DNA from: Acidobacteriota bacterium
GTDB lineage: Bacteria > Acidobacteriota > Blastocatellia > Pyrinomonadales > Pyrinomonadaceae
DNA: 64,000 nucleotides
Reading direction: 5' to 3'
Assembly: GCA_003697135.1 (NCBI GenBank)
Contig: RFGC01000035.1
Location: 124,001-188,000, forward strand
Part shown: in pieces, positions 2,829-3,170 of the stretch
How positions within the stretch are numbered: position 1 is the stretch's first letter
How the letters are laid out: each line of letters begins with the position of its first letter
The notes under the pieces: model-generated
Seen by the model: only the letters and a program-made list of their open reading frames with translations
What the model was told of the DNA's origin: nothing
Database searches by the model: none
Made by a program: the position numbers and the translations under genes

Positions 2829-2835
2829 AGAGAAT

Positions 2836-2867
2836 AAAATTCCGCAAGGTGAGGCTTGCGGAATTTT
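2836..2867. terminator. Bidirectional intrinsic terminator
   Basis: A perfect 13-bp stem, AAAATTCCGCAAG (2836-2848) with CTTGCGGAATTTT (2855-2867), around a 6-base loop. A/T-rich flanks on both sides let it act on the deacetylase transcript (+) and on any read-through from the minus-strand riboswitch. Confidence 0.8.
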
Positions 2868-2892
2868 ACTTTAGAGAAGATAGAGTTGACTA

Positions 2893-2923
2893 GAAAAAGA
2901 AAAAGCGCGAAGAAGACTCGCGC
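2893..2923 (-). terminator. Riboswitch expression-platform terminator
   Basis: On the minus strand a 6-bp GCGCGA/TCGCGC stem (2905-2923) is followed by a T-rich run (2893-2904). Its loop and 3' arm (GTCTTCTTCGC) are complementary to GCGAAGAAGGAC at 2950-2961, the 3' flank of the upstream aptamer, with one bulged G. That gives a plausible anti-terminator, so the hairpin is likely the switching element of the c-di-AMP riboswitch. Confidence 0.75.
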
Positions 2924-2945
2924 ACCTAAAATACGGAAAACTTAC

Positions 2946-3127
2946 TCGTGTCCTTCTTCGCCATGCTTACGAGGTTAGCTGTCGGGCTAGGAACGAAGAA
3001 GTTTCCCGCGTTACTTTAGGTAACGCTTCGCCCCTTTGCGTTAAAGTTTTGCAATCAGCGGTTGCAAAACTTTGGGTCCCCCGTGTTGCTTCCTCCCTCT
3101 TTGGGAGAAGCAACTTCAGCGACAACT
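2946..3127 (-). ncRNA. Cyclic di-AMP riboswitch (ydaO/yuaA type)
   Basis: Read on the minus strand, this region has the hallmarks of the ydaO family: GGGGGACCC (3074-3082), a long hairpin of perfect 12-bp arms (3043-3054/3062-3073), GGGGCGAA, a 7-bp hairpin (3008-3014/3020-3026), then CCCGACAGCTAACCTCG (2970-2986), the most conserved ydaO segment, followed by a purine-rich GGCGAAGAAGGA strand. A further stem occupies about 3085-3115. ydaO riboswitches normally turn genes off when c-di-AMP binds. A promoter lies just upstream and a terminator/anti-terminator downstream, so the element looks intact. No minus-strand gene follows; the next coding DNA is the convergent deacetylase gene. It is either an orphan or controls an antisense or non-coding RNA. 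Confidence 0.85.
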
Positions 3128-3141
3128 TTTCAACAAAGAAA

Positions 3142-3170
3142 AATATAGCACTAAAAAAAGTCTCTTGCAA
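3142..3170 (-). promoter_or_regulatory. Promoter of the c-di-AMP riboswitch RNA
   Basis: Minus-strand TTGCAA (3165-3170), a 17-base spacer and TATATT (3142-3147), a close match to a housekeeping sigma promoter. The predicted start near 3135 is just ahead of the aptamer, so the riboswitch is probably transcribed independently of the carboxylase gene upstream. Confidence 0.65.

Follow-up and report, generated by a model that had tools for sequence, protein, structure and literature searches.

A putative stand-alone c-di-AMP-sensing RNA with its own conserved 3' module in the Pyrinomonadaceae

The window, by which we mean the whole 64-kb stretch of DNA that was analysed, contains a carboxyltransferase gene on the minus strand and a convergent histone-deacetylase-like gene (Hist_deacetyl) on the plus strand, and the minus strand between these genes carries the features listed in Table 1. 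A covariance search (cmscan) matched the full RF00379 model (1-134; E 1.5e-13) at 67.7 bits, relative to a gathering score of 38 bits, bearing out the original prediction of a ydaO-type aptamer on this strand. This was the sole Rfam match at the gathering threshold in the window and the only RF00379 copy in the 2.79-Mb genome, which also encodes a DAC-domain c-di-AMP cyclase gene. The aptamer has no gene directly downstream of it on the same strand, in agreement with the absence of such a gene first noted there: no minus-strand ORF of at least 60 aa was found between the first terminator (T1) and the deacetylase stop, and a lone 53-aa minus-strand ORF (2847-2686; its TTG start falls within the second terminator, T2) gave no sign of gene status.

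The other proposed elements were also found in place. The promoter considered in the window alone was not above chance (4 sites found vs 2.7 expected in shuffles), and we return below to its conservation in relatives. T1 consists of the hairpin H1 followed by a U-tract, and the 3' tail of the aptamer (approximately 2962-2950) could act as an antiterminator by pairing with the loop and 3' arm of T1, with a duplex energy of -16.4 kcal/mol that 1% of shuffles equalled. In the one other genome of the window's genus, that of a sister species, the tail:arm duplex reaches -19.4 kcal/mol, and the U-tract of T1 is strong in both species; in the family's largest genus this pairing did not reach significance. 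The transcript in the window probably spans from about 3135 to about 2835, beyond the coordinates of the original prediction, and its predicted end lies approximately 115 nt short of the deacetylase stop codon. We also observed that T2 is symmetric enough to serve as a terminator in both directions, for the plus-strand deacetylase gene as well as for the minus-strand RNA.

Table 1. Predicted features of the minus-strand RNA, in window positions and in order of transcription, with the whole 3' module last
Feature	Position	Strand	Basis
Promoter TTGCAA-N17-TATATT, TG before the -10	3142..3170	-	sequence; conserved in relatives
RNA 5' end GUUGA(AAA), 5' strand of P0	3130..3134	-	conserved in relatives; pairs with 2885-2889 in the minimum-energy fold
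c-di-AMP riboswitch aptamer (RF00379, ydaO/kimA type)	2949..3131	-	67.7 bits; core nucleotides as in 4QLM
3' tail of the aptamer (GCGAAGAAGGAC), able to form the pseudoknot with the internal CUUCUUCG or alternatively to act as antiterminator strand	2950..2963	-	sequence and duplex energies
Hairpin H1, with U-tract (2904-2894) the attenuator terminator T1	2905..2923	-	sequence; H1 covariation across 46 relatives; tail:arm duplex energies
UCAAC, 3' strand of P0, corresponding to UUUUCAAC in relatives	2885..2889	-	conserved in relatives; pairs with 3134-3130 in the fold
UCUUCUCUAAAG, the form taken in the window by the invariant motif GUCUUCUCAAAG	2869..2880	-	comparison with relatives
Terminator T2 (AAAATTCCGCAAG...CTTGCGGAATTTT), 3' end of the long RNA	2836..2867	-	sequence; covariation in 10/13 pairs; fold
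Whole 3' module, matched by covariance models R1 and R2	2829..2926	-	R1 46.4 bits; R2 40.4 bits

RF00379 was searched in 60 relatives and in 119 genomes of the GTDB family Pyrinomonadaceae, and 157 copies, 152 of them in this family, were read in their context. A conserved module followed the aptamer in 64 copies (the stand-alone copies), and its motif was lacking in the other 93. Each of the 64 carrier genomes, which make up about half of those sampled in this family of soil Acidobacteria, held exactly one module-bearing copy, and in 32 of them it was the sole RF00379 copy. A promoter of the form TTG-N17/18-TAnnnT was located 9-11 nt upstream of the aptamer in 43/64 stand-alone copies, compared to 10% of shuffles; the minus-strand promoter seen in the window is conserved in these relatives.

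The module is ordered, after the aptamer, as hairpin H1, a U-rich stretch with UUUUCAAC, the motif GUCUUCUCAAAG and a strong intrinsic terminator; most genera also have a small AGAC/GUCU hairpin between the aptamer and the motif. The motif lies 49-83 nt downstream of the aptamer in the 64 stand-alone copies; it was exact in 54 of them and had at most one mismatch in 59, and was found in none of the 93 other RF00379 copies. Across 46 aligned modules, the named structure was paired in 90.9% of alignment cells and 14 of its 24 pairs had changed on both sides (4/7 in H1 and 10/13 in the terminator), a level reached by none of 500 shuffles, while slid structures were only 38-56% paired. The AGAC/GUCU hairpin was the weakest element, without compensatory change. 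In the window the module is reduced, having lost the second hairpin and the AGAC/GUCU hairpin and carrying the motif with mismatches. The conserved parts of the module are a single-stranded-looking motif and a terminator, in which no ANTAR element was recognised by eye, and the module matched no family in Rfam 15. We rejected the candidate that it encodes a small protein: no conserved reading frame was found in the module, and its longest frames were spread evenly across the three phases (22, 21 and 20), none with an SD.

We then followed the module independently of the aptamer, using a covariance model built on the module without the aptamer (R1). R1 matched 65 of the 119 family genomes, one copy each, and 64 of these 65 copies lay directly behind an aptamer; for the remaining one (in genome G068) the contig ends 87 nt away. 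In a sample of 396 genomes of the phylum, the module occurred in 23, all of this family, and an exact pattern search for the commonest motif form in 84,980 species genomes returned 28 matches, all in records titled Acidobacteria, Acidobacteriota, Blastocatellia, Chloracidobacterium or Pyrinomonadaceae. A second module model (R2), trained without the window's genus, ranked the window copy first among its matches across the genome (40.4 bits, E 7.8e-4), a score that leans partly on the terminator because the opposite strand at the same place scores 24.3 bits. In a tree of the aptamers, the 64 stand-alone copies fell into one clade (support 0.974), whose only other members were the 4QLM aptamer, used as an outside sequence, and one copy (G106:C414) that has the same hairpin downstream before its contig ends. 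At the level of sequence, these comparisons showed the aptamer and module to be one inherited RNA, present in one copy per genome and independent of its neighbouring genes.

The 5' end of this RNA is conserved together with the module. Stand-alone copies started with GUUGAAA in 63/64 cases (vs 10/93 other RF00379 copies), and its exact complement, UUUCAAC, occurred within the module in 49/64 (vs 0/93), so that these two strands could close a long-range helix, P0; only in the stand-alone class do the two occur together. In the window P0 consists of only 5 bp, seen in the minimum-energy fold. Measured from GUUGA to the terminator end, the stand-alone RNAs are 244-321 nt long (median 292). We observed separately that in the sister species (L058, G001:C18, approximately 77556-77640, minus strand) GUUGAAA is absent and a small hairpin, CGTGCTTTTTGAAAGCACG, is found in its place; as this species also lacks UUUUCAAC, both P0 partners are missing together.

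Compared with the solved aptamer 4QLM, the core ligand-pocket columns matched at approximately 100% in the stand-alone copies and the window, except for a U to G change at position 32, and this core was equally conserved in the stand-alone and cis copies, which differed chiefly at position 32 and in the peripheral helices. The solved aptamer sequence shows a CUCCUUCG/CGAAGGAG arrangement (PMC5393176), the same as the tail and internal pair of the window. At position 32 (4QLM numbering), which is G in the window, U was replaced by G in 81% of the stand-alone class and kept in 85% of the cis copies, and a change at this position may possibly affect ligand affinity or specificity. Among the cis copies of the family we also observed pairs on one strand, approximately 2-5 kb apart (G036:C20, L056; G011:C74, L053/L069; G122:C64, L156/L157), of which at least some lead permease-sized genes and which look like duplicated c-di-AMP-controlled transport loci. 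Elsewhere, a cis copy (L012, G009:C14) and similar copies in the same genus precede a gene for an FAD-NAD(P)-binding protein (NAD_binding_9), a gene type that is not known as a usual c-di-AMP target.

The genes around the stand-alone RNA bear on whether it acts on a neighbour. The next gene was convergent in 53/64 copies and on the same strand in 10/64, where these genes were varied and mostly started past the RNA's own terminator. An RNA under riboswitch control that is antisense to the convergent gene, here the deacetylase, would fit this frequent convergent arrangement, and has a precedent in AspocR acting on pocR (PMC8079631); transcription past both T1 and T2 would moreover enter the deacetylase gene. 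However, T2 would end the RNA before that gene is reached, and in relatives the RNA usually ends before, or within a few nt of, the convergent stop. The convergent gene itself varies between genomes (M1 peptidase, M48 peptidase, exonuclease/phosphatase, deacetylase and others), and ten copies have a sense gene next instead, making an antisense role quite unlikely in our view. We consequently do not retain the proposal that the riboswitch is aimed at the convergent deacetylase; of the suggested antisense or small RNA over the 3' end of that gene, the small RNA is upheld by a module-bearing RNA in 64-65 genomes, and the antisense action on the deacetylase is not. On the upstream side, a same-strand cytochrome oxidase assembly gene was found in at least 51 of the 64 genomes, often approximately 57 nt from the aptamer, as might be expected if the RNA were a 3'-UTR element of this operon that tunes the stability or decay of the same-strand transcript. 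We regard this as unlikely, since the upstream gene and the aptamer are separated by a promoter and since the window's genus has retained the RNA behind genes unrelated to the oxidase operon.

The original prediction had also allowed that the gene of this riboswitch was lost, which would make the locus a cis riboswitch in decay, with a relic terminator and a relic promoter. Other RF00379 copies in the family do lead genes, for example those for amino-acid-permease-type transporters, and the 3' module of the window is reduced, both of which are compatible with decay. However, the stand-alone aptamers form one clade, the module is absent from every cis copy and never precedes a conserved gene, the core nucleotides of the aptamer are intact and the terminator covaries. 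Comparison with related genomes revealed the same orphan state in 64 genomes. The sister species provides a further case: its single RF00379 copy, 79% identical over window positions 2858-3089, lies in a wholly different place, between an upstream gene without a confident family and a downstream convergent gene of the exonuclease/phosphatase type, and again has no gene of its own behind the aptamer. A change of place as a unit, with the orphan state kept, is not what would be expected of a relic. The loss of a gene is contradicted by these results, and we judge decay of a cis element to be very unlikely.

We instead consider it likely, from its sequence features, that the locus encodes a free-standing c-di-AMP-sensing ncRNA of approximately 300 nt, having its own promoter, a 5' ydaO-type aptamer and a 3' effector module, and the evidence suggests that this RNA controls something other than an adjacent gene. 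The 3' module (H1, UUUUCAAC, GUCUUCUCAAAG and T2) would constitute the effector domain. In the window's genus, the tail GCGAAGAAG could either complete the aptamer pseudoknot or open T1, so that the ligand probably switches the RNA between forms of approximately 235 and 300 nt. As c-di-AMP riboswitches are OFF switches (PMC9960051), the presence of ligand should give the ~235-nt RNA and its absence the ~300-nt RNA. With c-di-AMP bound, the tail GAAGAAG would be held in the aptamer pseudoknot and T1 would form; without c-di-AMP, the tail would pair with the 3' arm of T1, and transcription would reach T2 to yield the long RNA that displays UCUUCUCUAAAG. In the largest genus the tail:arm pairing is not significant, so this attenuator does not extend to all carriers, and in that genus refolding is an equally likely mode of switching. 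T1 is weak in genera other than the window's, where the ligand would more likely alter how the completed RNA folds, possibly by way of base pairing between its 5' end GUUGAAAA and UUUUCAAC.

The module might then act in trans on an mRNA or a protein, with c-di-AMP controlling distant genes in the manner of Rli55 with vitamin B12. We looked for targets of the motif by searching for its exact 12-nt complement (CTTTGAGAAGAC) in 41 genomes of the largest genus, where non-self matches were about as frequent as with a reversed-pattern control, and a reading of 19 non-self sites revealed no recurrent gene beyond one near-identical ortholog pair. A long antisense seed was rejected on this basis. Two other candidate pairings were also set aside as general features: a switch in which the tail universally masks the GUCUUCUC motif by pairing with it was in most sequences no better than composition-preserving shuffles, and the case for pairing of the tail with H1 was good only for the window's genus and a small number of others. 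The failure of the complement search to yield a target, together with the single copy per genome and no other conserved output, would be in keeping with a stand-alone RNA that merely buffers or sequesters c-di-AMP and whose module serves only stability and termination. However, GUCUUCUCAAAG and UUUUCAAC are conserved beyond the needs of stability alone, and a single-copy RNA would presumably need great abundance to titrate a second messenger, and we find buffering extremely unlikely.

Riboswitches are almost always read as cis elements. Here, an entire bacterial family seems to have made a dedicated small RNA out of a second-messenger aptamer and to have retained it while at least ten genera diverged. 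We give roughly even chances to the wider reading that this is an undescribed class of trans-acting RNA, confined to one Acidobacteriota family, with a dedicated small RNA that is gated directly by c-di-AMP and acts on distant mRNAs or a protein. If true, this would be a new output route for c-di-AMP, and the approximately 65 sequences with clear invariant motifs form a defined set for direct tests of ligand-gated small-RNA action. In the open-licence literature, we found no such c-di-AMP/ydaO RNA described as an orphan, as a trans-acting sRNA, or in Acidobacteria or Pyrinomonadaceae, and trans-acting riboswitches have been called rare examples (PMC7266159).

Several known systems resemble this RNA in part. 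Rli55 and EutX, of Listeria and Enterococcus respectively, are ncRNAs controlled by a vitamin B12 riboswitch, in which ligand gives a short form and its absence a long form with the effector element (PMC8079631). In its architecture the present RNA is like Rli55, with a riboswitch at its 5' end and predicted short and long forms, but its ligand and aptamer are different, and whereas Rli55 adjoins the eut genes that it controls and its ANTAR elements bind EutV, the RNA described here has varied neighbours and a new effector motif. We did not assign it to the Rli55 type because neither an ANTAR element, as judged by eye, nor a neighbouring target operon was recognised. The terminated RNAs of the Listeria SAM riboswitches SreA and SreB can act as small RNAs on distant mRNAs (PMC8079631), but SreA also controls an operon in cis, while the RNA here has no downstream gene. 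Like AspocR, a vitamin B12 riboswitch-controlled antisense RNA of Listeria, it is a riboswitch facing a convergent gene; it ends before that gene, however, and the gene is not conserved, and it was not placed with AspocR because there is no overlap with the convergent gene. By its aptamer it belongs to the RF00379 c-di-AMP (ydaO/kimA) riboswitches, with which it shares the aptamer, the pseudoknot tail and, in the window's genus, the OFF-type terminator/antiterminator platform; known members of that family lead mRNAs, whereas here the aptamer appears to head an ncRNA that has a conserved 3' module and a final terminator of its own.
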